From: a virus
Length of the DNA stretch: 64,000 nucleotides
IMG/VR virus record: IMGVR_UViG_3300040801_005040
Coordinates: 37,885 to 101,884 of that record
Strand: one strand, 5' to 3'
Every line of letters begins with the position of its first letter. Position 1 is the first letter of the stretch. Positions 1,946-59,019 of the stretch are shown here, piece by piece. The translations under genes were made by a program, and so were the position numbers. A model generated the notes under the pieces. The model was given only the letters and a program-made list of their open reading frames with translations. It ran no database searches and was not told the origin of the DNA.

Positions 1946-2839
1946 TTAGTTCTTTATAAATTCAAGATATACAATCAAACCTTTTCCTGGTTCAGTAGAA
2001 CCTACTTGATCTATATCAATATTTACTTTATCATCAAAAATAAAATTAGCATCAGATATAACAGGAGTTGTATTTGAGCCTACAGATGTTTCAGAGCCTG
2101 CATCTATTACTAATTTAGTAGATAAAACATCCCCTGTATTTTTTCTTATTTGTATATCTATATTAGACCCTGTAGGTGCTTGCCATACAGAAGCTCTTAC
2201 AGAATTTAAAGTAGCAGAATAAGGCATCCTAAAATAACCAGCACTATTTCCTACAATAATATTATCCTGTACTCCAGAACAAGCTACTCCAATATAATCA
2301 AAGTTTGTAGCAGAATCTGTAATAAGATAATAGGTGCTAGGATCTTTTACAGCTATAGCATCATAATCTGATTGATTGAGAGCTACTATATTATTAATTT
2401 GTACTGCACTAGCTCCAAGTCCTGTAATATCAGACTCAATCATATTACCTATACGTCCATCAAGATATCCTTTATTAATTATATCATCGTCAGTAACTGT
2501 ACCTCCTTTACGGATTACATATTCAATAGCTCCACCATCAAAAGAAAAAGAAATAGTATTTGAACCAAAAACTACACTTGACTTTGCTATAGGGGATGTT
2601 CCTGCCTCAATAGTAATGTTTGCAGTACCAGTAGGAATAAGTATTTTATTTTCATTAGCTGTAAGCCCTATATTAAAACTAGCTGGAAGTGTAAGACTAC
2701 CAGTAGATTGAAGATAGTTAGCTAAAAGAGCTACTATTTCATCTATTGCTGCTTGCCCATCAGTTGCTGAGAGTCCTGACGTAGTGTTGTCATACTCAAA
2801 GTTCTCTACCTGATTAGCATCAAATTTTGGTTTTGCCAT
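1946..2839 (-). CDS. Tail fibre protein with modules shared with the two large fibres
   Basis: This 297-aa protein is built from parts found elsewhere in the module. Residues about 130-175 (IESDITGLGA..., NQSDYDAIA, STYYLITDS) match a segment of the 669-aa fibre at 5420-7429. The C-terminal 110 residues (FRMPYSATLNSVRASVWQAPTGS through VGSTEPGKGLIVYLEF) match the C-terminus of the 818-aa fibre at 7440-9896. The N-terminus (MAKPKFDANQVENFEYDN) is unique here. The composition is typical of phage fibres. It probably forms part of the distal tail or baseplate. Confidence 0.6.
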   Translation of the reverse strand: MAKPKFDANQVENFEYDNTTSGLSATDGQAAIDEIVALLANYLQSTGSLTLPASFNIGLTANENKILIPTGTANITIEAGTSPIAKSSVVFGSNTISFSFDGGAIEYVIRKGGTVTDDDIINKGYLDGRIGNMIESDITGLGASAVQINNIVALNQSDYDAIAVKDPSTYYLITDSATNFDYIGVACSGVQDNIIVGNSAGYFRMPYSATLNSVRASVWQAPTGSNIDIQIRKNTGDVLSTKLVIDAGSETSVGSNTTPVISDANFIFDDKVNIDIDQVGSTEPGKGLIVYLEFIKN

Positions 2840-2840
2840 T

Positions 2841-4490
2841 TTATTTTATTGCTTTAATTGGTCCTATATACCCTCTGTTAAGTTTATTAGCTCCAAAACT
2901 TAAAGGTTTTTGTGTGTTTAATGAAGGAGGTATTATTACAGTTATTTCTTCACTGTATGATATTTTATTATCTACAGTATTTGCCCAAATTCTAAAATAA
3001 TATGTTGTTCCTGATCTAAGAGAACTAGGATTACTATTTCCCACTACTTGGGAATGAAATGTAAGATAGTTAAACTCTGTTGCAGATTGTTCTGTATAAA
3101 CTCCCGTATTTCTGGAAAACTCTACTCTACCTTGAGCAGGTATATCAAGATTCCAAGAAACTCTAAAAGAGTTGACATCAATTTCATTTACCATTATATT
3201 ACTTATAACTGCAGAAGGTCCTTCTACTATAGTATTACAAGTTAAATTTGGGTCAATAACTATATTTGCACTCTCAAGGGCCCCCCATACTGAAGCAAAT
3301 CCACTTTGATATATATTATTTTCAGATAGTAAAACATTTCCCGTGTATATACCTCCATAGTCATAAACAGTACTTCCACTATTAAAAGTAGTACCACATA
3401 CTGTTACATCAGGCATATATGCACCCCCTGAAAAAAAGGCCATGTCACTACTATCTTTGAAAAGACAATTATTAAATGTTATATGTCCACCCCCAATACT
3501 TGTAGAACCTATAACTCTTCCGTCGTAAGTTCCATCTTTAGCAAAAGTGCAATTATTGTAAGTAACAATTCCTTGATGTGTTACTGTTCCTGAATCGCAA
3601 AATTCTCCTTCTCCATAACATTGACCCGTACCCGTATAGTATTTTACAAAATCCAAATTAGAATTATTTCCATCGGGAGAAGTGAATATAGAATTATTAA
3701 AAGTAACTACTCCACTTGCTCCTTTTATTATTCTTCTTTCAGAGTTATAGAAATTACCATTGTTTATTGTAACCATAGATCCTGAATCAAATAATTGTAT
3801 AGCTTTAGTAGCATCTGTTCCAAAATTTATTTGATAGTAATAATCTGAAGAATCACATCCCCATATATCATGTATTTCAATTCCATCTATATTAACCCTT
3901 AAAGGCTGACTTGGTAGCTCGTACCAATATGTAATTAGTCCTGTAGCAGAACCTGTACCAGAAGTTAAGCTACAAGCGTTTAAAGCTCTTACATCGTGTA
4001 TGTAGATATTTTTTAATTCCCATTCTTCTGTATAAACATTAGGATCATCATAGAGATTTATTCTTAAAGCTATTACTCCTAAAGATACAGTTGGAAACAT
4101 ATCTTTAATTTCCAGACCGTCTATGTTTACATGGGAATTAACTGTAAAAGCTTTTCTTATTGAAAGATTCTGAGAAACATCTACAATTAAATTTTTTATA
4201 TATGTTTTACTTGGACCTGGTGTTGGGCTAGTACTTGCATCAGTTGTTCTTTTTGATACTATAATTCCTTCAGAATCACCCCAGCTTCCTGATGAAGCAA
4301 ATTGAATTGTTGAATTATTAAAGTCAGCATTAGTATTTATATTCCCTCTAAAAAACAATGTTGACGATATTTTATAAGTTAGATTAGGCCCAGAAGTAAG
4401 AACCTCTTCGTTATCTAAAGCATTTTGTAATGCTATAGTATCGTCAGTTATACCATTTCCTACTGCACCATAATCTTGAAAACTTGCCAT
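2841..4490 (-). CDS. Tail spike: pectate-lyase-superfamily beta-helix plus fibronectin type III domain
   Basis: This 549-aa protein starts with the classic tail-spike entry motif FQDYGAVGNGITDDTIALQNAL (residues 3-24 area), the N-cap of Pectate_lyase_3-type right-handed beta-helices. Residues about 50-420 show repeated short strands with Asn ladders, such as NNCTF, FNNCLF, FNNSIF and VCGTTF. Residues about 430-520 form a fibronectin type III-like domain (NSFRVSWNLDIPAQGRVEFS, SGTTYYFRIWA). Inferred role: polysaccharide depolymerase of the tail spike, with the FnIII domain as linker or binding module. It abuts its neighbours (1-2 bp). Active-site acids cannot be assigned from sequence alone. 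Confidence 0.75.
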   Translation of the reverse strand: MASFQDYGAVGNGITDDTIALQNALDNEEVLTSGPNLTYKISSTLFFRGNINTNADFNNSTIQFASSGSWGDSEGIIVSKRTTDASTSPTPGPSKTYIKNLIVDVSQNLSIRKAFTVNSHVNIDGLEIKDMFPTVSLGVIALRINLYDDPNVYTEEWELKNIYIHDVRALNACSLTSGTGSATGLITYWYELPSQPLRVNIDGIEIHDIWGCDSSDYYYQINFGTDATKAIQLFDSGSMVTINNGNFYNSERRIIKGASGVVTFNNSIFTSPDGNNSNLDFVKYYTGTGQCYGEGEFCDSGTVTHQGIVTYNNCTFAKDGTYDGRVIGSTSIGGGHITFNNCLFKDSSDMAFFSGGAYMPDVTVCGTTFNSGSTVYDYGGIYTGNVLLSENNIYQSGFASVWGALESANIVIDPNLTCNTIVEGPSAVISNIMVNEIDVNSFRVSWNLDIPAQGRVEFSRNTGVYTEQSATEFNYLTFHSQVVGNSNPSSLRSGTTYYFRIWANTVDNKISYSEEITVIIPPSLNTQKPLSFGANKLNRGYIGPIKAIK

Positions 4491-4948
4491 TATAATCTAA
4501 TTATATATTTTATACTTACATTATCTACTTCAAATTGATCACCTGAAGTAACTCCTCCAAAAACATATCTCCAGAGTGTACTTGATTCGGTTCCATGAGG
4601 AATATCAAATTGATATTTCTTAAAAGTAGAACTTATAACTTCTTGATGTACTATATTAAAGGACATTCCAGATTGAAAAGTGTTTGTACCTACAGTTTGT
4701 CTTGCTTCATAGACTATTCTTAAATAATATCGCTGCCCATCAAGAGGTACTATAGCATTTTGATACAATACATGATTATTTCCTGTATTTTGTAATGGAC
4801 CTAAAGCTATTACATTACCAACCCCTCCCGCAATAGTAGATCCATTATTTTTTACCCAAGAAGCATCAACATCAAATGTTCCATTTTCTACTTGCTCTTC
4901 TCCTAAAACAGGAGTTCTTATTCCTTTTCTATGTGTTTGCAATCTCAT
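4490..4948 (-). CDS. Tail-module protein with CBM-like domain (paralog of next gene)
   Basis: This 152-aa protein has one predicted beta-sandwich domain: EEQVENGTFDVDASWVKNN near residue 18 resembles the start of carbohydrate-binding-module-type domains, and the end FEVDNVSIKYI is the matching last strand. It is paralogous to 4945-5418, which shares the FEVDNVSI ending and the QFDAR/VYEARQT strand. The stop and the next start overlap by 1 bp. Inferred to bind glycan on the host surface as part of the tail complex. Confidence 0.55.
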   Translation of the reverse strand: MRLQTHRKGIRTPVLGEEQVENGTFDVDASWVKNNGSTIAGGVGNVIALGPLQNTGNNHVLYQNAIVPLDGQRYYLRIVYEARQTVGTNTFQSGMSFNIVHQEVISSTFKKYQFDIPHGTESSTLWRYVFGGVTSGDQFEVDNVSIKYIIRL

Positions 4949-5418
4949 AATATTAGTCTTATGCTTACATTATCTACTTCAAAAATTGAGGAGCTAATTG
5001 GACCACCAAAAGCTAACCTTGTAAAATTACTAGATGTTCCAGGTACAGTTAAAGTTTTGTTATAAGTATATGTTGTGAATGAATTTGTCAATGGAATATT
5101 AAAATCTATTGAATAATTTGTAAGACCTACTTGAAAAGCTCCACCTCCAAGTACAGTATCTCTGGCATCAAATTGAACTTTTATAGTTATTGTTTGTCCT
5201 AAATAAGAACTTAAAAAATCCCCATATACTGCCCAATTATTTGCTGTAACATTTAATGCTCCCATAGGATATACAGTAGCTATTCCTTCAGATATAAAAC
5301 TTGATCCTTGAGTAGTCCAAATACCAGCAGGATTATTAAACCCAGGATCACTAACTAGTTCTGGTCCAAGACCTGATCCAGCTGCATTTAAAGCATGTAA
5401 GTTTTTTAATAAACTCAT
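4945..5418 (-). CDS. Tail-module protein with CBM-like domain
   Basis: This 157-aa protein reads GPELVSDPGFNNPAGIWTT at residues 18-36 and ends SSIFEVDNVSIRLIL, the pattern of small CBM-like jelly-roll domains. It overlaps its downstream paralog (4490-4948) by 4 bp. The pair suggests tandem duplication to raise avidity or broaden glycan binding. No catalytic motif is seen. Function is inferred from the fold pattern and position between a fibre and a tail spike. Confidence 0.55.
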   Translation of the reverse strand: MSLLKNLHALNAAGSGLGPELVSDPGFNNPAGIWTTQGSSFISEGIATVYPMGALNVTANNWAVYGDFLSSYLGQTITIKVQFDARDTVLGGGAFQVGLTNYSIDFNIPLTNSFTTYTYNKTLTVPGTSSNFTRLAFGGPISSSIFEVDNVSIRLIL

Positions 5419-10553: not shown

Positions 10554-11873
10554 TTAGGAAAGTGTCGGAATAACTACACCATTGGCGCCATTGATAGCTG
10601 TGTTGAGATCAGCAATCAAAGCGTTTGTTTTAGTGAATGTACCGATATCTTCCTTAACAAAGATAGTAATCTGCTTTTTGGATGCAACTTGCTCATCATC
10701 CCTTCCATAATCCCTGTACTCAAGGCTAACTGCATGGTAGGTAGCATCAAGCTCAGAGTCATAGTGCTCTGGAAAGTTATGAGGATAACCAGCACCACGG
10801 AAAGTGTCTTGCCTGTTACCAAGCAGGTATTCTTCCATGTTGCGTACACTGTATCCATCTCCTTTTGCAGGAGTTCCTCCTGATACGCTGATAACAGGGG
10901 AATCCGCAGGAGTTTCAGCAGTTACAGTAAACAAAAGATTAGTACGGGTTTTCTTGCCAGTTACATAGTAATCAGCCAGCCATCCAGTTTTTTCAGTAAT
11001 GACTACTTGCCATACTGAACCATCAACGCCAGGAGTGGTTTGAGCAACAGTTGCAGTTACACCAGATACTCCGTTTGCACTGAAGGCAAGAGCAGCTTCA
11101 ACCCTTTCAAAGGCAGAAGTAATTGCTATAGCGTTAGTGGTAGGAACAGCAGTGTAATCAGTGTTTGCGTTAATCCAATCTGAAATTTCAGCTGCGAGGG
11201 TAGTAGTAGTACCACCAGCAGTAACAGGAACAAAATAATCAGTTCCGTTAAGAGTAACTTTTACATTGCCATCTTCAGTTGCAACAGCAGTCATTGTAAG
11301 GGTTACAACAGCAGCAGTACCATCGGTGGTGTTTTTATCAAACTTAAACCAACGATTCTGAGGAAGCCTTACAGTAGTTGCATCTTGTTGAGTAAGCAAG
11401 AAGGTACCAGTATCTTGAGGTTGTTCACGAGACCAGTTACGAGCAAGAGACTTGATAAGACCATCAACTATCTTTTCACTATCGGTGTCAAGAGCCTTGT
11501 AAAATGCTTCTTTAATGTAAAAGTCTTCCGCTGAAAGACTGCCAACTCCCTGTACTTCAATTGCAATGCGATAAAGTTCACCTGCAACAGGGGTTCCAAT
11601 AGGAACAGTTACTACTTTAGGAACTGCAGCTACTGCCTTCTGTGAGCTACCATAGGTAACTTTGGAAGGATCCAATTTATACTGTGTAATTCCACCTTTG
11701 AAGTTTTTTACCCCAACCATGAATTCCACTCCGTTTGCAGGAGCAGTACCATCTGCACTAAGCACAAAAGCATCACCATTGGTGGCATTTCGCGCTTCAC
11801 CCATAGTACCATGGTTTGGATAATCCTTTCCAATTAGGACGTTTCTTACGTAATTTTCACCTATTAAGGCCAT
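10554..11873 (-). CDS. Structural protein, probably abundant (head decoration or tail)
   Basis: This 439-aa protein starts ALIGENYVRNVLIGKDYPNHGTMGEARNA. Codon use is cleaner and GC higher than in the fibres, as in the capsid gene, which suggests high expression. Residues about 190-330 are rich in Thr/Ala/Val and look like an inserted Ig-like or beta-sandwich domain (AAVVTLTMTAVATEDGNVKVTLNGTDYF). The flanking parts are mixed. A strong terminator follows. I do not recognise the family. Tail tube/sheath-like or capsid-auxiliary roles are both possible; its place after the connector-type genes slightly favours a tail or neck role. Confidence 0.55.
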   Translation of the reverse strand: MALIGENYVRNVLIGKDYPNHGTMGEARNATNGDAFVLSADGTAPANGVEFMVGVKNFKGGITQYKLDPSKVTYGSSQKAVAAVPKVVTVPIGTPVAGELYRIAIEVQGVGSLSAEDFYIKEAFYKALDTDSEKIVDGLIKSLARNWSREQPQDTGTFLLTQQDATTVRLPQNRWFKFDKNTTDGTAAVVTLTMTAVATEDGNVKVTLNGTDYFVPVTAGGTTTTLAAEISDWINANTDYTAVPTTNAIAITSAFERVEAALAFSANGVSGVTATVAQTTPGVDGSVWQVVITEKTGWLADYYVTGKKTRTNLLFTVTAETPADSPVISVSGGTPAKGDGYSVRNMEEYLLGNRQDTFRGAGYPHNFPEHYDSELDATYHAVSLEYRDYGRDDEQVASKKQITIFVKEDIGTFTKTNALIADLNTAINGANGVVIPTLS

Positions 11874-41002: not shown

Positions 41003-41571
41003 ATGTATTATTTATACAGGCATGTCAGACCTGATAAGAATCAGGTATTCTATGTTGGCGTAGGAACTTTAATGGGAGAGAATTTAATTCCTCATCTTGG
41101 CAGTACATTCAGAGCTTATTATAGAAGAGCTTTTCAAAAAAAGAGCAGGAATCCTTATTGGCATAATATTGTTAATAAGGCAGGCTATGAAGTAGAAATA
41201 ATGCTTGAATCTGATAGCATAAACTTTATTAAAGAGAAAGAAAAGAAGTTTATACAATTGTATTCAAGTACTCTTTGTAATATGACTACTGGTGGAGACG
41301 GTGTTGAAAGCTATAATCACACTGAAGAAACTAAAAGAAGAATTAGCAATACAATGAAAGGTGTTAAAAAGCCAAAATGTGTTGCTGATAAAATTAACAA
41401 GGCTAAATTTAAGCCTATTATTATGTATAATAACAAGGAAAAATTAGAATTTGATTCTGCCACCAGTGCTGCTAAGTATCTTGGTAACATTAACAAAAGA
41501 TCTAATATTTCAAGTTGTTTATACGGGAAAAGAAATCAAGTAAATGGTTATTATTTTAAATTTAAGGGAGA

Positions 41572-41575
<4 letters not shown>
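41003..41575 (+). CDS. GIY-YIG homing endonuclease (free-standing)
   Basis: I choose the ATG at 41003 (MYYLYRHVRPDKNQVFYVGVG, 190 aa), which has AAGGAG 5 bases upstream; the frame upstream is longer by 8 codons. YLYRHV...VFYVGVG is the GIY-YIG core, followed by an Arg in YRRAF, and Glu in the AGYEVEIML area. The middle has NMTTGGDG, then a NUMOD3-like SYNHTEETKRRISNTMKG repeat, and a NUMOD1-like C-terminal DNA-binding part (FDSATSAAKYLG). It has a clear Shine-Dalgarno, unlike its neighbours, and lies behind a terminator: signs of a mobile gene. Confidence 0.9.
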
Positions 41576-43931
<2,356 letters not shown>

Positions 43932-45448: not shown

Positions 45449-46495
45449 ATGAAAGGATTTGCAGAAGGTAAACCTTATCCGAGTTATAAAGATGTTTATG
45501 AAAGACTTACTCAAGAGAGTGTATATGCAATGTACACAGGAGGAGTGTTTAAAGCAGGACTTATGACTTCACCCATTGGGGCAAGGGATAGACATGCTTC
45601 TTTCAGTATCTTTTGGAGTCACAGGAAAGGGAAATATTTATTTAAAGAATTCAGATATGGATATACTGGCGATTGTGTTGATCTTGTAAGGTATATCTAT
45701 AACTATAAGGATAACACTCGTGCCTGTATGCGCATTATGCATGATTTTGGCATTGATGATTATCATATAGATTCTGATATTGGATTTCTTCCTTCACCTG
45801 GGAGCAAAGTCAATAAGAGCATTGTTGTAAGCCCACCAAAAAGAGAAGTTGAAATTAAGATTACAGTTAGAGATTGGGTATTCTACGATGTTGTTTTCTG
45901 GGGTCAGTTTGGTATTACAATGAAATGGCTTCAAAGAGGTAATGTTTATCCTATTAGCCATTATTATGTCAATGGATACATGAGACATGCAGATACGTAT
46001 GCTTACGCTTATGTTGAAAATAAAGATGGAATTTTTACATATAAAATATACCAGCCTTTTGCCGACAAGAAAAAGAAATGGCTTAATAGTAACGACTCTT
46101 CTGTTTGGGAATTATGGGATCTTCTTCCAGAGAGGTTTCCAATATTAATAATTACCAAGAGTAGAAAAGATGCATTATCCATAATGTCAACCATTGGTAT
46201 CCCTTCTACTGCGTTACAATCTGAAGGTACAAAACCAAAACCTCAGGTAATGGATGAGCTTAAGAGCAGGTTTGACAGGATTATTGTCTTTTATGATAAT
46301 GATTTTGATAAAGAAACAAACTATGGACTTAAGTATGCGCAGAGCCTTCAAAGGGATTTTGGGCTGGAGATTATGATGCTTCCTTCTGAGTATGGGGAGA
46401 AGGATTATAGTGATTTTGTTAAAAAATATGGGCCAAATAAGGCTCGAAAAGTATTAGAAGAACTGGTAAAAACACTTAATAATGAAAACAGTTAA
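45449..46495 (+). CDS. DnaG-type primase
   Basis: This 348-aa protein has an N-terminal region that reads like the primase zinc-binding/catalytic lead-in without cysteines (DRHASFSIFWSHRKGKYLFKEFRYGYTGDCVDLVRYI), and a TOPRIM core: FPILIITKSRKDALSIM (residues about 230-247) and RIIVFYDNDFDKETNYG with the Asp-x-Asp metal site (about 272-288). It makes primers for the lagging strand. The first TOPRIM Glu appears replaced (ITKSRKD), a point to check. Its end overlaps rIIA-like by 14 bp. Confidence 0.8.
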   Translation: MKGFAEGKPYPSYKDVYERLTQESVYAMYTGGVFKAGLMTSPIGARDRHASFSIFWSHRKGKYLFKEFRYGYTGDCVDLVRYIYNYKDNTRACMRIMHDFGIDDYHIDSDIGFLPSPGSKVNKSIVVSPPKREVEIKITVRDWVFYDVVFWGQFGITMKWLQRGNVYPISHYYVNGYMRHADTYAYAYVENKDGIFTYKIYQPFADKKKKWLNSNDSSVWELWDLLPERFPILIITKSRKDALSIMSTIGIPSTALQSEGTKPKPQVMDELKSRFDRIIVFYDNDFDKETNYGLKYAQSLQRDFGLEIMMLPSEYGEKDYSDFVKKYGPNKARKVLEELVKTLNNENS

Positions 46496-49181
46496 CAATC
46501 AGATTTATGATGTTAGAGGGGATGATTATGAAACTATTAAAATGCGCGTTGATGATTCCAAATTGGCAAAGCTTTATGGAATGCTCAGTAACATTTATAG
46601 GAATCCCATCGGCTCTATTGTTAGGGAATATGCTTCTAATGCACATGATGCAAACGTAGAAGCAGATAATTTTAAAAATCTCTCCTGGGAAGAATTATGT
46701 AAAATTTATCCCTGGATAAATGATGCTAACAGTAAGCTTAAACTGACAGAACAAGAATATCTTGAACTTAAGGCTAAGCTAAGTAAAGCAGGTACAGATG
46801 AACCTATAGTAGTGTCTGTTGACAGGAATAAAATGGAGTTTTATGTCAAAGATTATGGTATTGGACTCAGTCCTTCACGCATGCATCATGTATTCTTTAC
46901 TTATTTGTCTTCCACAAAAGAGGATACAGATGGTGAAATTGGTGGTTTTGGCATAGGTGCAAAAAGTGCACTTGCTTATACAAATACCTTTTTCATTGAT
47001 ACTGTTTACAATGGAGTGGAATATAATTACATGATGACTAAGAATGCCGAGGGAATGCCTGAAGGTAAACTTATGCTGTCAAAGGAGAGTAATGACCATA
47101 ATGGAACAATGATTCGCATTCCAATTAAGGAATGGTCTGACATAAAAACATTTGATAAGGAAATAGAGAGAATGCTTCTTTATATGCCTAATGTTTTTTA
47201 TGCTGGAGAAGAACAGTATTGTACTATAAATAAAGATAAACTTTACAAAGGCAAAGGTTGGATTTTAAATTCTTCCCAAAGGTATGATCAAATGCATATA
47301 GTGCTTGATAACATTCCTTATACTATAGATTGGGGAGAACTTGATATAAAAGCTGTTAAAGTACCTCTTGGTCTTACTTTTTCCACTGGTGAAGTTGTAC
47401 CTACTCCTTCAAGGGAATCTCTTCTTTATACTAAGAATACTAAGGATAAAATCATTGAGAGGATAGGTAACATACAGGATTATTACTACCAGAAGAAAGT
47501 TGAAGAAAGCAAACCTACGAATGATTTAATGGTGGCATGGAAAGCTTTAAATGGCTCTTCTAATAAAGTTAATCTTTTTAATGGAGATGATGAAGCTTTT
47601 TATATTGATTTACAAGATCTTTTAAAAGATGCTGTAGGACCAATTACATCTACTGTTAATTCAATTCCAAAAGCAGCTGTTTATGCTCCTTTAGTTACCT
47701 CATCTCTTTCTTTAAAAAAACTTTATAATTTAAGCGAATCTTCTTTCTTTGCTTACGGTGAAATAGAGTTGGGTCGTAATGCAACTGGGAAACTAAAAGT
47801 TTATTCTGAAGACAATTATTATTCTGGAGATGTATCTTATAGAAAGGTTATTAATGACTTAGATGCTGGTACTGCTGTAGTTACTACAAAGCTAAAAGTA
47901 AATCAACTTGAGGTTCATTATTTTCTTGAGAAGAAGTTTGATTATGGTAAAATTCAAAATCTTATCAGAAGTGGAAATTGGATCTCAAACCTTAAAATAT
48001 ATCGTTTAAGGAATATGAATCATAGCACTTATGAAAGAGTATTTCAACTTAAGCAATTTGAAAAAAGTCAATGGGATCCAACTATAGAAGGAATCAAAGC
48101 AGTTGATAATTTTATTAAAGACCATGCTCATAATTTAGATGTACTTGTTGACCCTAATTATAACAGACTTTATCGTGCTGGTAAGTGTAAATTTAAACCT
48201 AAAGCTACAAGTTTAATTCCAGATGGAGTTTATAGCACTAAGATTTATTACAAAGGTATTGAGGCATCAGGATCAACAGTAAAACAAATTCCAGCAGGTA
48301 ATCTTAAGAGTTTAGATTCAAGAGGTTTGCCTAACCCCATAGTAATATATGGAGACAATACTCAGATACAGAATTTAAAGCTCATAAGGGATTTAATTGT
48401 TGCTTATACCGATTCTAAACCAAGAAGTCAAAGTAAGAAAAAGGCCAAATACAGGAATCTTAGTCAAGCGTGTGAATTTGTAATAATTTATAAAAAGGAT
48501 GTAAGTAAAATAAAACAATTTCAAATGGATAATTGGTATCACGTAGAAGATGTGAATTCTGGTAAGTTTAAACCTTTACAAAGAGTTGCAACTGCTAATT
48601 ATATGCGGAAAACCATGTTAAGGTATAATCTTAACTTAAATGATGCTATAGGATTATCTTTAGATCTTCAAAATGATTTAGCTGTAATAAATAAGTATAT
48701 TGATACTAATGTTGAGCGTTATAAGAATGTTATTTCTTATAATAATCAAGATGCTGATTTACTTGAATTTATAACAGAATCTCATATTAAAAATGATGCT
48801 CTTGACTGGTTAATGATGGAAAGGTTTTTACGTATTAAAAAACTTTTCTCAAGAAGTATTGCTCTTAATGTTCATTTGGGTTATCATCTTGAACCACATG
48901 GGTCTGCTGGAATGTCTCATACTTTAATGAGAAAGTATCATATAGCACAGAATTTAATTAGAGAAGGGGTTCCTGTTGACATAATCTTTCATGATAGTTT
49001 CAGAGACTATGTTCTTTCTCAATATGTGCTTAATGATTCAGTATCTTATAGATATGTTATGTATTCTGTACATGAATCTTCTGCAGTTACTTGTTTGTAT
49101 GAGGATTTTTATGGTCAGGATGAATATTTAAAACAAATACCAGATGAGACAGATAAAGGGGGATTTGCTAAAGCTGTTTAA
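46482..49181 (+). CDS. rIIA-like GHKL ATPase
   Basis: This 899-aa protein has a GHKL ATPase domain at the N-terminus: N-box REYASNAHDAN (Glu49, Asn53), G1 motif DYGIG (residues 124-128), G2 GGFGIGAKSA (154-163). The domain with MLSNIYRNPIGSIVREYASNAHDA is characteristic of T4 rIIA-type proteins. The long C-terminal part is unassigned. T4 rIIA acts with rIIB on membrane-linked lysis inhibition and in resistance to lambda Rex exclusion. With the rIIB-like gene close by, an anti-exclusion role is likely. Confidence 0.82.
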   Translation: MKTVNNQIYDVRGDDYETIKMRVDDSKLAKLYGMLSNIYRNPIGSIVREYASNAHDANVEADNFKNLSWEELCKIYPWINDANSKLKLTEQEYLELKAKLSKAGTDEPIVVSVDRNKMEFYVKDYGIGLSPSRMHHVFFTYLSSTKEDTDGEIGGFGIGAKSALAYTNTFFIDTVYNGVEYNYMMTKNAEGMPEGKLMLSKESNDHNGTMIRIPIKEWSDIKTFDKEIERMLLYMPNVFYAGEEQYCTINKDKLYKGKGWILNSSQRYDQMHIVLDNIPYTIDWGELDIKAVKVPLGLTFSTGEVVPTPSRESLLYTKNTKDKIIERIGNIQDYYYQKKVEESKPTNDLMVAWKALNGSSNKVNLFNGDDEAFYIDLQDLLKDAVGPITSTVNSIPKAAVYAPLVTSSLSLKKLYNLSESSFFAYGEIELGRNATGKLKVYSEDNYYSGDVSYRKVINDLDAGTAVVTTKLKVNQLEVHYFLEKKFDYGKIQNLIRSGNWISNLKIYRLRNMNHSTYERVFQLKQFEKSQWDPTIEGIKAVDNFIKDHAHNLDVLVDPNYNRLYRAGKCKFKPKATSLIPDGVYSTKIYYKGIEASGSTVKQIPAGNLKSLDSRGLPNPIVIYGDNTQIQNLKLIRDLIVAYTDSKPRSQSKKKAKYRNLSQACEFVIIYKKDVSKIKQFQMDNWYHVEDVNSGKFKPLQRVATANYMRKTMLRYNLNLNDAIGLSLDLQNDLAVINKYIDTNVERYKNVISYNNQDADLLEFITESHIKNDALDWLMMERFLRIKKLFSRSIALNVHLGYHLEPHGSAGMSHTLMRKYHIAQNLIREGVPVDIIFHDSFRDYVLSQYVLNDSVSYRYVMYSVHESSAVTCLYEDFYGQDEYLKQIPDETDKGGFAKAV

Positions 49182-49617
49182 GGAAGGAGAGTTTGATGTA
49201 ATTATTCATGGTTGTAATTGTTTTAACGTTATGGGGGCAGGGATAGCAAAACAAATTGCAGAAAAATATCCTAAAGCTTCGCTTGCAGATAAGGAAACTT
49301 TGATGGGAGATGCTAAAAAACTTTCAAATTGGAGTACTTATATCTTGCCTAATAACCAGATAATCATTAACTTATATACTCAATACCTACCCGGAAAAAA
49401 CCTTAATGAGTGGGCTCTTTTTCTTGGCTTTGAAAAATTACTGAATTATCTATTGCCTATTGGTAAAAGAATTGGGATACCTGCAATTGGGTGTGGCATA
49501 GCTGGAGGAGATTGGAATAAAATATTTCCTGTCCTTACAGAAATTGCTAAAAAAGCAGGTCATGATCTTATTACGTATGTTGAATATGAAAAATTAAACA
49601 AAAATGGAACTGATTAA
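49144..49617 (+). CDS. Macrodomain protein (ADP-ribose-binding)
   Basis: This 157-aa protein has macrodomain signature parts: GDLLKLFKEGEFDVIIHGCNCFNVMGAGIAKQI (residues 4-36; Asn-containing N-x-F-x-M-G-G/A-G loop) and IGIPAIGCGIAGGDWNKIFPVLTEIA (phosphate-loop G-x-G-x2-G-G-x-W). Family members bind or hydrolyse ADP-ribose and derivatives. It lies between rIIA-like and rIIB-like genes with overlaps of 38 and 14 bp, suggesting a functional link, perhaps removing ADP-ribose marks set by host defence. Confidence 0.88.
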   Translation: MRQIKGDLLKLFKEGEFDVIIHGCNCFNVMGAGIAKQIAEKYPKASLADKETLMGDAKKLSNWSTYILPNNQIIINLYTQYLPGKNLNEWALFLGFEKLLNYLLPIGKRIGIPAIGCGIAGGDWNKIFPVLTEIAKKAGHDLITYVEYEKLNKNGTD

Positions 49618-50899
49618 ATTAACTAAAGTGGATGACAATGTCATTCTGGTGATGGATGATCAAATTTATCACAGAAGAATTTCTTCCTCGGAAGATAATC
49701 TTTTTGATGAAATTCAGGAAGGTGTTGATGAGCTTAAAAGTGGAGCACTTGAAGCTGATGAATATGCTGAAGTCAAAAAAGCGCTTCGTATATTGATGAA
49801 CACCAGACCTATTCCTGAATTTAAAGAGCTAAAAGAAAGGGAGGAAAGAATTAGCAAAGAAACTTTTGATTTGGCTAATGGAGAGTTAGACATGGAAGAA
49901 AGGCTTGAAAAAGCTGAAAGAATTGCCTCTGTAAATGATAACCTTGAACATGATCTTCAGGGTTACGTATATCTTAAAGGACATTCTGTTCCCATGCCAG
50001 CTGATTTGGTTGAAGCATTTCAAGATGCAACATATAATGATTCAAGCCTTTATACTGTTGAAGCTCTTGAAAACTTTTGGAAATGGGCAGTTCTTAATCC
50101 AAACCCTGAAGCAAGGAATGACCTTTTCAAATGGTTTAAAAAAGGTGAGTTTACAATTACCAGTGAAGGTATGGTAGTAGCATATCGTCGTGTTGATGTA
50201 AAACATCAAGGTAATGGTGAATCTAAACTTTGGGAATTTGTAAAAAGCTCCTGGGATAAAGTTAAAGCCTGGAAGAAAAGCCCTGCGAGATATAATGTAT
50301 ATCAAACAGAAAATGGATATTTAACTTTACCGGAAAGCTCACCTGTCAGCAATGATTATATTTTTATGGGCAATCTTGATGACCTTTATGATGATATGTC
50401 TGACCAAACTTTTGGAGAAACTATCTATACTGATAATTATACCAAAACCATGTCGATTAAGCTTGGTGAAGAAGTTAGCATGGCAAGGGAAGATTGTGAC
50501 TCTAACAGGGATGCTTCTTGTAGCAGGGGGCTGCATTTCATGAATAAACGTTATTCAGGAAACTTTGGATCTGTTCCTATTGTCATTCTTATTAATCCAA
50601 TGAACATAGTGGCATTCCCAAGGTATGATAATACTAAAGGAAGGACTTGTAGATATCTTCCTGTAGCTCTTGCAGATACAGATGAAAATAACAGGATTCT
50701 TCCTTTTAACGAAGGGGCTTGCGAGTTTACTTATGCAGGTCTTGAGAAAGATAGGATTGCTAATCTTGCTTTTGAAAAAGGATTTGATGGTCTTGTCAAA
50801 GCAGGCTTGATTTCAGGTGAAGTTACAATCAAGGATTTCAATTTTGTCAGGGATGTGGCAAAGAAATCCATTGAAGGTAAATTAACCAATGTGGAATAG
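49604..50899 (+). CDS. rIIB-like protein
   Basis: This 431-aa protein has rIIB-type segments: LENFWKWAVLNPNPEARNDLFKWFKKGEFTITSEG followed by MVVAYRRVDVK (residues 155-200), a pattern of Leu-x-FW, Asn-Pro, hydrophobic Phe, and Gly before aliphatic/Tyr. The middle reads CSRGLHFMNKRYSGN and PIVILINPMNIVAFPRYD. T4 rIIB partners with rIIA. The start overlaps the macrodomain gene by 14 bp, and the end overlaps UDG by 11 bp. Confidence 0.8.
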   Translation: MELIKLTKVDDNVILVMDDQIYHRRISSSEDNLFDEIQEGVDELKSGALEADEYAEVKKALRILMNTRPIPEFKELKEREERISKETFDLANGELDMEERLEKAERIASVNDNLEHDLQGYVYLKGHSVPMPADLVEAFQDATYNDSSLYTVEALENFWKWAVLNPNPEARNDLFKWFKKGEFTITSEGMVVAYRRVDVKHQGNGESKLWEFVKSSWDKVKAWKKSPARYNVYQTENGYLTLPESSPVSNDYIFMGNLDDLYDDMSDQTFGETIYTDNYTKTMSIKLGEEVSMAREDCDSNRDASCSRGLHFMNKRYSGNFGSVPIVILINPMNIVAFPRYDNTKGRTCRYLPVALADTDENNRILPFNEGACEFTYAGLEKDRIANLAFEKGFDGLVKAGLISGEVTIKDFNFVRDVAKKSIEGKLTNVE

Positions 50900-52053: not shown

Positions 52054-52355
52054 TGGTAGCTGAGAATATTATTGAATTGAGGAACCTTGTATATGAGGTT
52101 TTTGAAGTAACTGACTACAACTTATATTTCAAAGCATTTGATGCTGAGAAATATTATGAGTGTACTATTATGGCTGAAACATATATGGAAAAAGCGAGAG
52201 ATGCTTTCTTTGCAACTCTTCAAAAAGAAGTATGTGATATTGAAAAGGCCATAGAATTTCATTCTGCGTTTAAAGTATTCCAAATGTCATTGGAGTATGC
52301 AGCTAAAAAGTATGAAATAACAAGAAAATCTGAGATTGATGAAGACATTATCTGA
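52053..52355 (+). CDS. Small helical protein, function unknown
   Basis: This 100-aa acidic helical protein (MVAENIIELRNLVYEVFEVTDYNLYFKAFDAEKYYECTIMAETY...) lies between the resolvase and the exonuclease with 1- and 20-bp overlaps. No family recognised; possible partner of either nuclease. Confidence 0.55.
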   Translation: MVAENIIELRNLVYEVFEVTDYNLYFKAFDAEKYYECTIMAETYMEKARDAFFATLQKEVCDIEKAIEFHSAFKVFQMSLEYAAKKYEITRKSEIDEDII

Positions 52356-53376
52356 TTTAAGTTTAAGAATTACAGAAGAAGAATATAGAGAAATAGGAGA
52401 TGTTTCATATTCCCTTCTTTCTTCAATAGACAGGCTTGGGGCTGAGGTTAAAACAGAAGATTTTCAAGGAAATAAGGGTACTCAAATGGGAACTCTTATT
52501 GAAGAACTGGTAATTGGTGGCTATGATGCAACCAAGTATTATATTGGGGATGCTGTTGATATAGGAGATACCTTAATAACCATAATCAATGAAATATTTC
52601 AACCTGAGTATGAGATTGAATTGAATGAAGAATGGCTTGAAGGTTTTGTTTTACAGGCTCTTATAGACATGCCTCATTTGCAGTATTATAATAATTGGAA
52701 AAATGAAACAAGGGCTAAAAGCATAGTTAAGAATGGCTTTCCTTACATTAAATCTCTTGTTGAGTCCAGAGGTAAAATTTCATTTACCAATGCTGAGTTT
52801 GATACTTGTGTTCAATGTGCAGTTACTTTGAAAAGTCATGCTTTTACTGGAAAAATCTTTAAGAAGAGGGAAAATGTAGATACGTTTGCTCAATTTAAAG
52901 GGACATTCAATATTCATGACATTACTGTAAGGTTTATGGTGGATTTTCTTGAAGTAGATCATAATACTAAAACTGTAACTCCTTATGATATTAAGACTGG
53001 GAATAAAAAGCCTGAAAACTTTCAAAAAAGCTATCATTATTGGAGATATGATATCCAGGATTACATTTATACTAAAGGTGTAACGAAAGTACTTTTCGAT
53101 GAGTTTCCTCATTATACTTATAATCCTGTTCATTTTATTTATATCAATACTGTTGGTACTCCCAGACCTTTGATTTATAAGGGTCTTGGAACAAATGCAT
53201 TAGTTTGGACTGGTTATAAGTATGATGGGTGGAAATATAAAGGTATAAGTGAACTTATAGATGAGTATGTTTGGTACAAAAAACATAACTTTGAAATAGA
53301 CTTCCCTGAAAAGATATACAATAGTGAAGGAAAGCTTAATATAGAATCTTTTGATTTTCAACCATTAACGTCATGA
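52336..53376 (+). CDS. PD-(D/E)XK exonuclease
   Basis: This 346-aa protein has a Cas4/lambda-exo-like core: GTQMGTLIEELV (residues 48-59, Gly and Glu of motif I), FMVDFLEVDHNTKTVTPYDIKTG (D then D-x-K of the active site, about 200-226), and YHYWRYDIQDYIY (Gln/Tyr motif, about 237-249). Such enzymes are a standard component of crAss-like phage replication modules. Role: end resection for recombination or replication. Confidence 0.85.
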   Translation: MMKTLSDLSLRITEEEYREIGDVSYSLLSSIDRLGAEVKTEDFQGNKGTQMGTLIEELVIGGYDATKYYIGDAVDIGDTLITIINEIFQPEYEIELNEEWLEGFVLQALIDMPHLQYYNNWKNETRAKSIVKNGFPYIKSLVESRGKISFTNAEFDTCVQCAVTLKSHAFTGKIFKKRENVDTFAQFKGTFNIHDITVRFMVDFLEVDHNTKTVTPYDIKTGNKKPENFQKSYHYWRYDIQDYIYTKGVTKVLFDEFPHYTYNPVHFIYINTVGTPRPLIYKGLGTNALVWTGYKYDGWKYKGISELIDEYVWYKKHNFEIDFPEKIYNSEGKLNIESFDFQPLTS

Positions 53377-57129: not shown

Positions 57130-57267
57130 ATGAAAAGACAATATTTTAAAACCAGCCTTTATAAGAGGCTGCGGGATTGTATTGACCAAAATAAAGAATT
57201 TACTCTTGTAAACCCTAGCGAAGCTCAATGGATACTCAGATTGATTGGCAAAAAAGATAGAAAATGA
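57130..57267 (+). CDS. Small basic peptide (45 aa)
   Basis: MKRQYFKTSLYKRLRDCIDQ and following (NKEFTLVNPSEAQWILRLIGKKDRK) forms a helical basic frame. Its stop TGA overlaps the next start (ATGA). Coding is supported by this coupling; function unknown. Confidence 0.5.
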   Translation: MKRQYFKTSLYKRLRDCIDQNKEFTLVNPSEAQWILRLIGKKDRK

Positions 57268-57506
57268 AAACACTTGAAGAACAGGTAGAGGAGTTTTACC
57301 AAAACAACAGGGAGGAACATCTAAAAAAAACCATAGGAACCTCTGATTTTTGCAAATCAATGATGTCCGCCTTCCACAAACACGCTTTGGAGGAGAAGAT
57401 GAAAGAAATTGAATTAAAGCAGGATGTGCGTCCCGATGGAGAATGGCATAAGGGTTACGATGCAGGCATTAGATTTTCAATAGAAATCCTAAACCAAGAG
57501 AAATGA
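57264..57506 (+). CDS. Small cassette gene ending LNQEK
   Basis: This 80-aa protein (MKTLEEQVEEFYQNNREEHLKK...) is helical and ends ILNQEK. The last 18 bp, including stop and next start, belong to a repeat that recurs downstream. GC is higher than in the replication module. Unknown function. Confidence 0.55.
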   Translation: MKTLEEQVEEFYQNNREEHLKKTIGTSDFCKSMMSAFHKHALEEKMKEIELKQDVRPDGEWHKGYDAGIRFSIEILNQEK

Positions 57507-57592
57507 AAGAAGATCAAAATGATTTAGCAGTAATGACAATCATATTTGCTTTTATCGTTATGGTAATGGTAATGGTAATAGTGCTAAACTAA
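57503..57592 (+). CDS. Tiny membrane peptide (29 aa)
   Basis: MKEDQNDLAVMTIIFAFIV and a Met/Val repeat tail (MVMVMVIVLN) form a single hydrophobic span. The repeat of ATGGTA codons (57560-57577) may be a replication-slippage tract. Bounded by two junction repeats. Coding is likely because of those borders. Confidence 0.5.
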   Translation: MKEDQNDLAVMTIIFAFIVMVMVMVIVLN

Positions 57593-57597
57593 GAGAA

Positions 57598-58005
57598 ATG
57601 AAACGAGAAATAAGATTTAGGGTTTGGGATACCAAAAACAAAATAATGGTTACCGACAAAAATTGGGAGCAATACAAGAACAATAGTACGCTTGGATATG
57701 AATATTGTAAAGATGAGTGGTATCCTGTATATCAGGTGCTTGAAATGATTTTTCCGGTTATTTCCGATCAGTTTGAAAAGATGCAATTCACCGGACTAAA
57801 GGATAAAAACGGAAATGAGATTTATGAGGGTGACGTATTGTCGATAAATGACTTTTCGTGTCCAGTTACATTTAGCGACGGATGCTTTCAATTAAAAAGC
57901 AGTCCGAATCAAGGCACAAGCCCGCTAACTGGCGAAAGAGCTTCAAGGCTTAAAGTCATTGGCAATATTTACCAACACCCTGAACTACTGAACCAAGAGA
58001 AATGA
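57598..58005 (+). CDS. YopX family protein
   Basis: This 135-aa protein matches the YopX phage family: KREIRFRVWDTKNKIM at the start, QFTGLKDKNGNEIYEGDVLSI (residues about 62-82), TFSDGCFQL, and VIGNIYQHPELL near the end. Function of YopX is unknown; it is common as a cargo gene in phages and prophages of many phyla. GC and codon use differ from the replication genes, suggesting recent transfer. Confidence 0.85.
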   Translation: MKREIRFRVWDTKNKIMVTDKNWEQYKNNSTLGYEYCKDEWYPVYQVLEMIFPVISDQFEKMQFTGLKDKNGNEIYEGDVLSINDFSCPVTFSDGCFQLKSSPNQGTSPLTGERASRLKVIGNIYQHPELLNQEK

Positions 58006-58118
58006 GAGAACACGGGACGGTACTTTGTAAATCCATAGGCCGGGAAATGGGCGGGAAAATAGCTGAATCAATAAAGCCCCCTGTATCGTCCCTAATAAAA
58101 TTAAACCAAGAAAAATGA
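58002..58118 (+). CDS. Small cassette gene (38 aa) ending LNQEK
   Basis: MREHGTVLCKSIGREMGGKI and following (AESIKPPVSSLIKLNQEK) is a GC-rich short frame bordered by junction repeats on both sides. It encodes a short amphipathic segment. Coding is supported by repeat-bounded start and stop. Confidence 0.45.
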   Translation: MREHGTVLCKSIGREMGGKIAESIKPPVSSLIKLNQEK

Positions 58119-58642
58119 AACCCGAACAAATAGAACAAAAGCTGTTAGAACTTGGCGCAACAAGAGAAAAGTATGACTTTCGTGATGATGATGATTATTA
58201 CTTAGATCTCAAAATAAGCGAATTAATTTCATACGTTTATGAACCTGACACTAATGTGGGTTACTTTTATTATGAGGGTGGAGAAATAGACACTCTTGAC
58301 ATGAAAGAAGTTGAAAGAACACTTAATTTTTTTAAATTAAAAGAAAAAAAAGAAATGGAAAAATTAGATGACGAAGATGAAATAATGTCGATGCTTGTTG
58401 GATATGCTTCTGCTTATGAAAGTAAAAGGTTACCAATAGACGAAATTAAATTAGATACTGCGGTTAGTTTTATCATGGATTTTATTTTAAATAATAGGAA
58501 TGAAAAGGCAGAAATTCTCACTGAAATTCTAAATAAATGGGATGATGCTGCCATAGACAAATGGTATGGTATGCAACATTCTAATTCTGGAGTCAGATCA
58601 AGCCTAAAGAAGCTTAGAGACGAAATTTTAAACCCTGAATAA
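58115..58642 (+). CDS. Acidic cassette protein, function unknown
   Basis: This 175-aa protein (MKPEQIEQKLLELGATREKYDFRDDDDYYLDLKISEL...) is acidic and mostly helical, with GYASAYESKRLPIDEIKLDTAVSFIMDFIL near the centre. Base composition returns to AT-rich after residue about 70, suggesting that it may be a fusion of cassette and older sequence. Unknown. Confidence 0.5.
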   Translation: MKPEQIEQKLLELGATREKYDFRDDDDYYLDLKISELISYVYEPDTNVGYFYYEGGEIDTLDMKEVERTLNFFKLKEKKEMEKLDDEDEIMSMLVGYASAYESKRLPIDEIKLDTAVSFIMDFILNNRNEKAEILTEILNKWDDAAIDKWYGMQHSNSGVRSSLKKLRDEILNPE

Positions 58643-59019
58643 TGAAAACACTATTATTTATACTATTCCCTTTTCTGGTGAGTAGTCAAGTCAAAGAGTT
58701 AAAACCATATACTGGCTGGGATGGTCAGGATATAGACAAAGGATACCAATATATAAATGATTTGTATCAGTCATATTATAAAAATCTCAATATTAATATG
58801 ACTACAAATACTCAAGGATATATTGATATTATGGGACAAAAGGATGGAAAGCCATTTATAGAACAATTGTACTATAATGCTACTGAGATTTCACCTAATA
58901 ACTATAATGTTGAAATACAATCTTTGAGTCCTGTATTTGATCATACAAGATTTATTGAAGGTTACTTACAAACTAATATAATTGGGTCTCAACCCAGAGA
59001 AAAAAAAGGGGGGTATTAA
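58642..59019 (+). CDS. Secreted protein, function unknown
   Basis: This 125-aa protein begins with a signal peptide (MKTLLFILFPFLVSSQVKEL, likely cut after Ser-Ser-Gln or nearby). The rest is Tyr/Asn-rich and beta-like (YQYINDLYQSYYKNLNINMTTNTQGYIDIMGQKDG). It probably acts in the periplasm or outside the cell. It is the last plus-strand gene before the convergent terminator. Confidence 0.55.
   Translation: MKTLLFILFPFLVSSQVKELKPYTGWDGQDIDKGYQYINDLYQSYYKNLNINMTTNTQGYIDIMGQKDGKPFIEQLYYNATEISPNNYNVEIQSLSPVFDHTRFIEGYLQTNIIGSQPREKKGGY

Follow-up and report, generated by a model that had tools for sequence, protein, structure and literature searches.

Near-identical 18-bp stop/start borders join consecutive small, unrelated genes in a crAss-like phage

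In integrons, gene cassettes are lined up as unrelated small genes with repeated sites between them. In T-even phages, short repeats between small genes have reportedly been proposed to promote the shuffling of modules (mobile regulatory cassettes), and these cassette elements are said to carry promoters and stem-loops. A seam of another kind is found in Island3, where the C-terminal 18 residues of gp68 recur in gp67, encoded just upstream, and the relative lacks gp68 (PMC3029335). Cluster K mycobacteriophages, in turn, carry 11-19 copies per genome of a 13-mer, the start-associated sequence (SAS), which lies mostly 3-7 bp upstream of a start codon, holds a Shine-Dalgarno (SD) core and is conserved across related phages (PMC3203893).

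Here we describe an array of small genes joined by a near-identical 18-bp border (the border array), found in a window of 64,000 nucleotides that runs to the end of a virus record of 101,884 bp (IMGVR_UViG_3300040801_005040, positions 37,885-101,884). Like genes 67/68 of Island3 and Brujita, the array consists of adjacent unrelated genes with a common C-terminal coding tail at the DNA level; in that pair one of the genes is found in some relatives but not in others, and the common seam was inferred to be a place of recombination (PMC3029335). The two cases differ in that the Island3/Brujita seam spans about 50 bp, involves two genes and comes with a comparison genome (PMC3029335), whereas the border array repeats 18 bp, including the stop and the overlapping start, at four to five consecutive junctions and stands without a comparison genome.

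The likeness to SAS is that of a short asymmetric repeat at the starts of some, not all, small non-structural genes, in one orientation and not common in the tested bacterial genomes; moreover, some SAS copies hold an upstream stop codon (PMC3203893). The border, too, sits at gene starts in a single orientation and is not enriched in the Flavobacteriales family that was searched, which may not be that of the host. Unlike the dispersed SAS, however, it occupies only adjacent junctions (five in all), has no SD sequence (no AGGAG core), and includes the start codon, within ATGA, and the upstream coding tail in the repeat itself. Formally, no described repeat at start codons comes closer than SAS; the border falls outside that class, although it might have a similar role.

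In contrast to the T-even cassettes, no promoters or stem-loops were found in the border array. Its arrangement, unrelated small genes separated by a repeated site, is also that of integrons, but no integrase was seen in the block (none of the 10 ORFs between 54.3 and 59.0 kb matched a recombinase), there is no palindromic attC-like site, and the repeat lies within coding sequence. The border array looks like a variant of the known mosaicism at short conserved boundary sequences, and an unusually clean case of it. Near-identical borders with unrelated modules between them are present in the array; one border flanking different modules across genomes was seen for the analogous borders of three other loci only (L168, L169 and L186).

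The border copies and the genes they join

The window virus is a crAss-like phage, a gut-phage type, with a major capsid protein 49% identical to that of crAss-like phage cr108_1 (Steigviridae) and a DNA polymerase 44% identical to the enzyme of Maribacter phage Panino. The border array lies at the 3' end of its + strand replication block, directly ahead of a convergent gene for a 1650-aa protein, for which cr108_1 was the sole match among phage records. At the same locus, the replication block of Panino ends in a tRNA array and cr108_1 carries other genes, neither having a block equivalent to the border array; no homologous block was found in the polymerase relatives L160-L164 either.

Elsewhere in the window, the phage encodes a GroEL-type chaperonin (42294-43931; phrog_5725, E 2.2e-140) and rIIA-like and rIIB-like genes (46482-50899). 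A 439-aa protein (10554-11873) matches a tail sheath family (phrog_165, E 4.7e-10), which is unexpected if the phage is a podovirus, as other crAss-like phages are. In addition, a TAATCTT(A/T) motif, possibly an early promoter element, occurs ~20 bp ahead of several + strand starts (27603, 29665, 32209 and 44440), two occurrences reading GTCTAATCTTAA.

Four copies of the 18-mer were found at consecutive junctions between 57489 and 58118, each ending one ORF and starting the next exactly as the original prediction described (Table 1); the ORFs that they open encode 29, 135, 38 and 175 aa, respectively. These copies are all on the + strand and carry 0-2 changes relative to copy 1. Copies 1, 3 and 4 encode Leu-Asn-Gln-Glu-Lys-stop (LNQEK), overlap the start that follows by the 4 bases ATGA and differ from each other only synonymously. 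In copy 2, the upstream stop is a TAA within the repeat, and the former frame, Glu-Lys-TGA, is still readable. The count of four holds for the near-identical copies; a decayed fifth border, which matches copy 4 at 15 of 18 positions, had been overlooked. Similarity between copies ends sharply at both edges of the 18-mer, with none beyond in either direction.

Table 1. Positions of the borders, the genes they join, the recombination genes and the before/after loci (window coordinates unless a locus is named)
Feature	Position	Strand	Description
Border copy 1	57489-57506	+	CTAAACCAAGAGAAATGA
Border copy 2	57584-57601	+	CTAAACTAAGAGAAATGA; CAA to TAA change shortens the upstream gene
Border copy 3	57988-58005	+	CTGAACCAAGAGAAATGA
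Border copy 4	58101-58118	+	TTAAACCAAGAAAAATGA
Decayed border copy 5	58628-58645	+	TTAAACCCTGAATAATGA; LNPE-stop, same phase
80-aa gene	57264..57506	+	ends LNQEK-stop; ATGA overlap with next gene
29-aa ORF	57503..57592	+	hydrophobic, one putative membrane segment; ends LN-stop
135-aa YopX-family gene	57598..58005	+	PF09643, E 1.5e-23; ends GNIYQHPELLNQEK-stop
38-aa ORF	58002..58118	+	ends LNQEK-stop
175-aa gene	58115..58642	+	ends LNPE-stop
125-aa gene	58642..59019	+	last in the + strand block ahead of the convergent 1650-aa gene
Sak4-like ssDNA annealing protein	41572..42294	+	phrog_2872, E 2.1e-27
Exonuclease VIII-like protein	52339..53376	+	phrog_412, E 5e-13
Before/after pair for the MKWIIR... 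gene	L168:1340-1560; L186:900-1100 and 1590-1660; L169:7960-8030		

With up to 3 mismatches to the 18-mer allowed, 4 copies were recovered, as opposed to a mean of 0.19 and a maximum of 2 in shuffled sequences (0 of 100 shuffles reached 4). Likewise, when the 18-mers at the gene starts of the genome were compared with one another (6,670 pairs), the seven closest pairs all came from the border run, decayed copy 5 taking part in one of them. Given the shuffled-sequence control and this internal comparison, a chance origin of the repeats is excluded. That the copies are homologous, i.e., related by common descent, is well supported at the sequence level by their common phase, by the purely synonymous differences among the LNQEK copies, by copy 2 being a one-base nonsense derivative in the same phase, and by the sharp edges.

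The four copies enclose no more than three genes; these are, as predicted, short and unrelated, and include the YopX gene. The 29-aa, 38-aa and 175-aa proteins have no detectable relatives, and none was found for the 80-aa protein (marginal partial matches only) or for a 205-aa protein. The genes had also been described as GC-richer, which is true of the 80-aa (0.39), YopX (0.38) and 38-aa (0.42) genes but not of the 29-aa (0.28) and 175-aa (0.31) genes, the mean for + strand genes being 0.334 (sd 0.034). Among the 40-odd YopX homologues, the C-terminus consists of GNIYxxPELL and a tail variable in length and sequence, and the next gene is very often joined by an ATGA-type overlap. In the window protein, the tail following the PELL motif is NQEK. 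Since this is how the family natively ends, the LNQEK tail of the YopX gene could be border-derived.

Identical seams in tandem would follow naturally if one ancestral gene had been duplicated together with its junction, the gene bodies then diverging completely. However, the bodies (29, 38, 80, 135 and 175 aa) show no similarity and differ in GC content, and YopX is a member of a large family of its own. Moreover, full divergence of the bodies beside 18 bp that stayed ~90% identical would need strong selection on the seam. We consider such a history most improbable.

Distribution of the 18-mer and its relation to start sites

The original prediction likened the border to a natural modular cloning site and proposed looking for it in other phages. 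In 2.9 million viral contigs, the degenerate 18-mer had 46 exact matches, compared with 43 for the reversed control, i.e., no enrichment, and no contig held two copies; for a 15-mer short form, none of the matches listed came from a contig with two copies. The likening to a cloning site was an overstatement, and a ubiquitous cassette site is ruled out by these counts. Across the rest of the 102-kb phage genome, no copy above 14/18 was found. In 296 genomes of the Chryseobacterium indologenes family (Flavobacteriales), there were 14 matches, 12 of them the same variant (TTAAACCAAGAAAAATGA), compared with about 27 for the control. For this one family, which may not be the host's, a common codon pattern is ruled out as the explanation.

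The 18-mer is private to the border array locus; this rules it out both as a widespread cloning site and as the phage's ordinary start signal. No relative with the border-array genes or the 18-mer was found among the records searched, which may lack very close relatives. What holds of the predicted recombination-ready border is the homology of its copies, the preserved ATGA overlap and the unrelated genes in between; a border common to other phages it is not.

We also considered whether an A-rich, non-SD initiation context might have been selected independently at each start. Bacteroidota do not use SD sequences and have Kozak-like contexts with adenine at -3 (PMC6847099), and other phages among the retrieved loci reuse A-rich or SD leaders repeatedly, e.g., AAAGGAGGCAGAATGA in L122. 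However, scored against a profile of the start sites of 92 other genes in the same genome, the border copies rank only at the 8th to 58th percentile, that is, average or poor. Because the phage's own profile does not favour the 18-mer, convergence on an optimal start signal is disfavoured; nor is the 18-mer an ordinary start signal, as it does not recur elsewhere in the genome. In addition, three of the four copies have G rather than A at -3, the other genes of the genome do not use the 18-mer, conservation covers the C residues at -9/-8 and coding positions to -14, and the nonsense copy keeps its old phase. Independent selection at each start is, in our judgement, decidedly unlikely.

A start-associated regulatory site, acted upon by a phage protein, a small RNA or a specialised ribosome and co-regulating translation of the small genes, would account for copies that always contain the start codon, share one orientation and fall in one functional block. 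It would also fit the absence of the 18-mer from the rest of the genome and its lack of enrichment in the tested bacteria, the same formal properties having been described for the SAS of Cluster K mycobacteriophages (PMC3203893). Yet no antisense partner was found for the 18-mer, inspection revealed no inverted structure within it, and no conserved RNA fold is common to the junctions, which rules out a shared RNA structure there. Furthermore, the copies number just four to five and are all adjacent, one of them has a premature stop within the repeat, and the repeat includes the upstream coding tail, whereas SAS copies mostly lie 3-7 bp before the start. A regulatory site of this kind seems to us unlikely.

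Seams and gene movement in related phages

Common seams were also observed in other phages, in a screen of about 4,500 gene junctions. Across all loci, neighbouring unrelated genes had a common seam 42 times, compared with 1.0 expected, and in low-GC loci (n=202) a common 21-bp tail/start seam was found 34 times, compared with 1.7 expected, the expected counts being derived from cross-locus pairs.

Several such seams come from polymerase relatives of the window phage. In L169/L214, four small genes within 0.7 kb end in FKNK or FKKK directly before the stop, with the seam TTTAAAAACAAATAARATGA; these FK(N/K)K-ending proteins are mostly unrelated, and stop-GATGA is found at the seam. Small, mostly unrelated genes with an FKNK-stop tail and the seam TTTAAAAACAAATAAGATGA occupy L169:6745-7510 and L186:1-1120. 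Ahead of the same 104-aa anchor gene, L186 holds a different set of small genes, ending in (F/Y)KNK-stop with a similar seam, and in L168 the anchor comes directly after an upstream 141-aa gene, with an ATGA overlap. These polymerase relatives carry independent cases of the same stop/start-seam design in another sequence, and by analogy the border array would have arisen in the same way. Some arrays are repeated SD leaders and have a simpler explanation. L122, a phage or prophage contig, is one of these: near-identical AAAGGAGGCAGAATGA leaders precede successive small genes at 2300-5300, including two consecutive YopX genes.

The charged tails common to other arrays (FKNK-stop and NQNK-stop), together with the solely synonymous differences among copies 1, 3 and 4, raise the alternative that LNQEK-stop is itself selected, as a C-terminal stability or targeting tag of co-expressed small proteins. 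Nonetheless, a nonsense change has removed the tail from copy 2, copy 5 reads LNPE-stop, and the surroundings of the start codon are equally conserved, so we hold a selected peptide to be very improbable.

Gene movement could be followed in L168 and L186, which are 95.5-95.9% identical over the parts they have in common. In L186, a gene of about 150 bp (MKWIIR...) precedes the 104-aa gene; L168 carries this small gene between a 45-aa gene and the polymerase instead, inserted exactly between CA and ATGAAAG (Table 1). The empty site in L186 and L169 reads ACAAGACAATGAAAGAAAATG, in which the stop of the 45-aa gene overlaps the start of the polymerase. The L168 insert begins at this same ATGAAA, and where the insert ends the polymerase start, ATGAAAGAAAATG, is re-created. 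Of the 40 distinct gene gain/loss breakpoints in the whole set, 15 fell on a start codon, compared with the 2.6% expected from random placement within the same regions; this count shows where gains are found rather than that seams attract them, since start-codon breakpoints would also result from random insertion followed by the loss of every product with a broken gene, and since alignment ends tend toward gene edges, which contributes to the count.

Proposed origin of the borders

We consider it probable that all the repeats descend from a single 18-bp stop/start junction and were left by the addition of accessory genes one at a time. The ancestral junction would have comprised the final codons of one gene together with its stop, and the start of the following gene, which overlaps that stop. 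This crAss-like phage would have received small accessory genes singly where its replication operon ends at the 3' side, each by insertion or duplication at a stop/start junction, and each incoming gene would have brought or acquired the same seam, the upstream frame ending in LNQEK-TGA and the next starting in ATGA. Recombination between short seams or ATGA(AA) microhomologies is the likely route. Selection would then retain those insertions after which the genes on either side are still intact and still translated, probably via termination-reinitiation, and the ATGA overlap may serve to couple their translation. Counting against this origin, a stretch of 18 bp offers little length for homologous recombination, and at the border array itself neither the gain nor the exchange of a gene is seen.

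Two proteins encoded by the phage probably assist the joining: the Sak4-like annealing protein is a plausible candidate agent of short-homology recombination, with the exonuclease VIII-like protein as its candidate partner, and the recombinase acting at the border array would be the phage's own. An HNH homing-endonuclease-like gene (41003-41575; phrog_314) lies directly upstream of the Sak4-like gene with a 4-base overlap. As no other phage was found in which these 18-mers flank a different gene, gene swapping at the 18-mer is something that we infer; the border may still be able to exchange genes.

More broadly, and more doubtfully, Bacteroidota phages might keep lineage-specific coding seams of about 18-21 bp as working, translation-preserving acceptor sites, at which their own annealing protein adds, removes or moves single small genes. 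How phages take up a single small gene without disrupting a packed, overlapping operon has usually had to be deduced from mosaic maps whose border sequences are gone. Near-identical seams, along with before/after relatives that are 95% identical, make both short-homology joining and selection for a translatable seam directly testable, and this in phages with few genetic tools. The value of the border array would rise if its seams proved to be working exchange sites.
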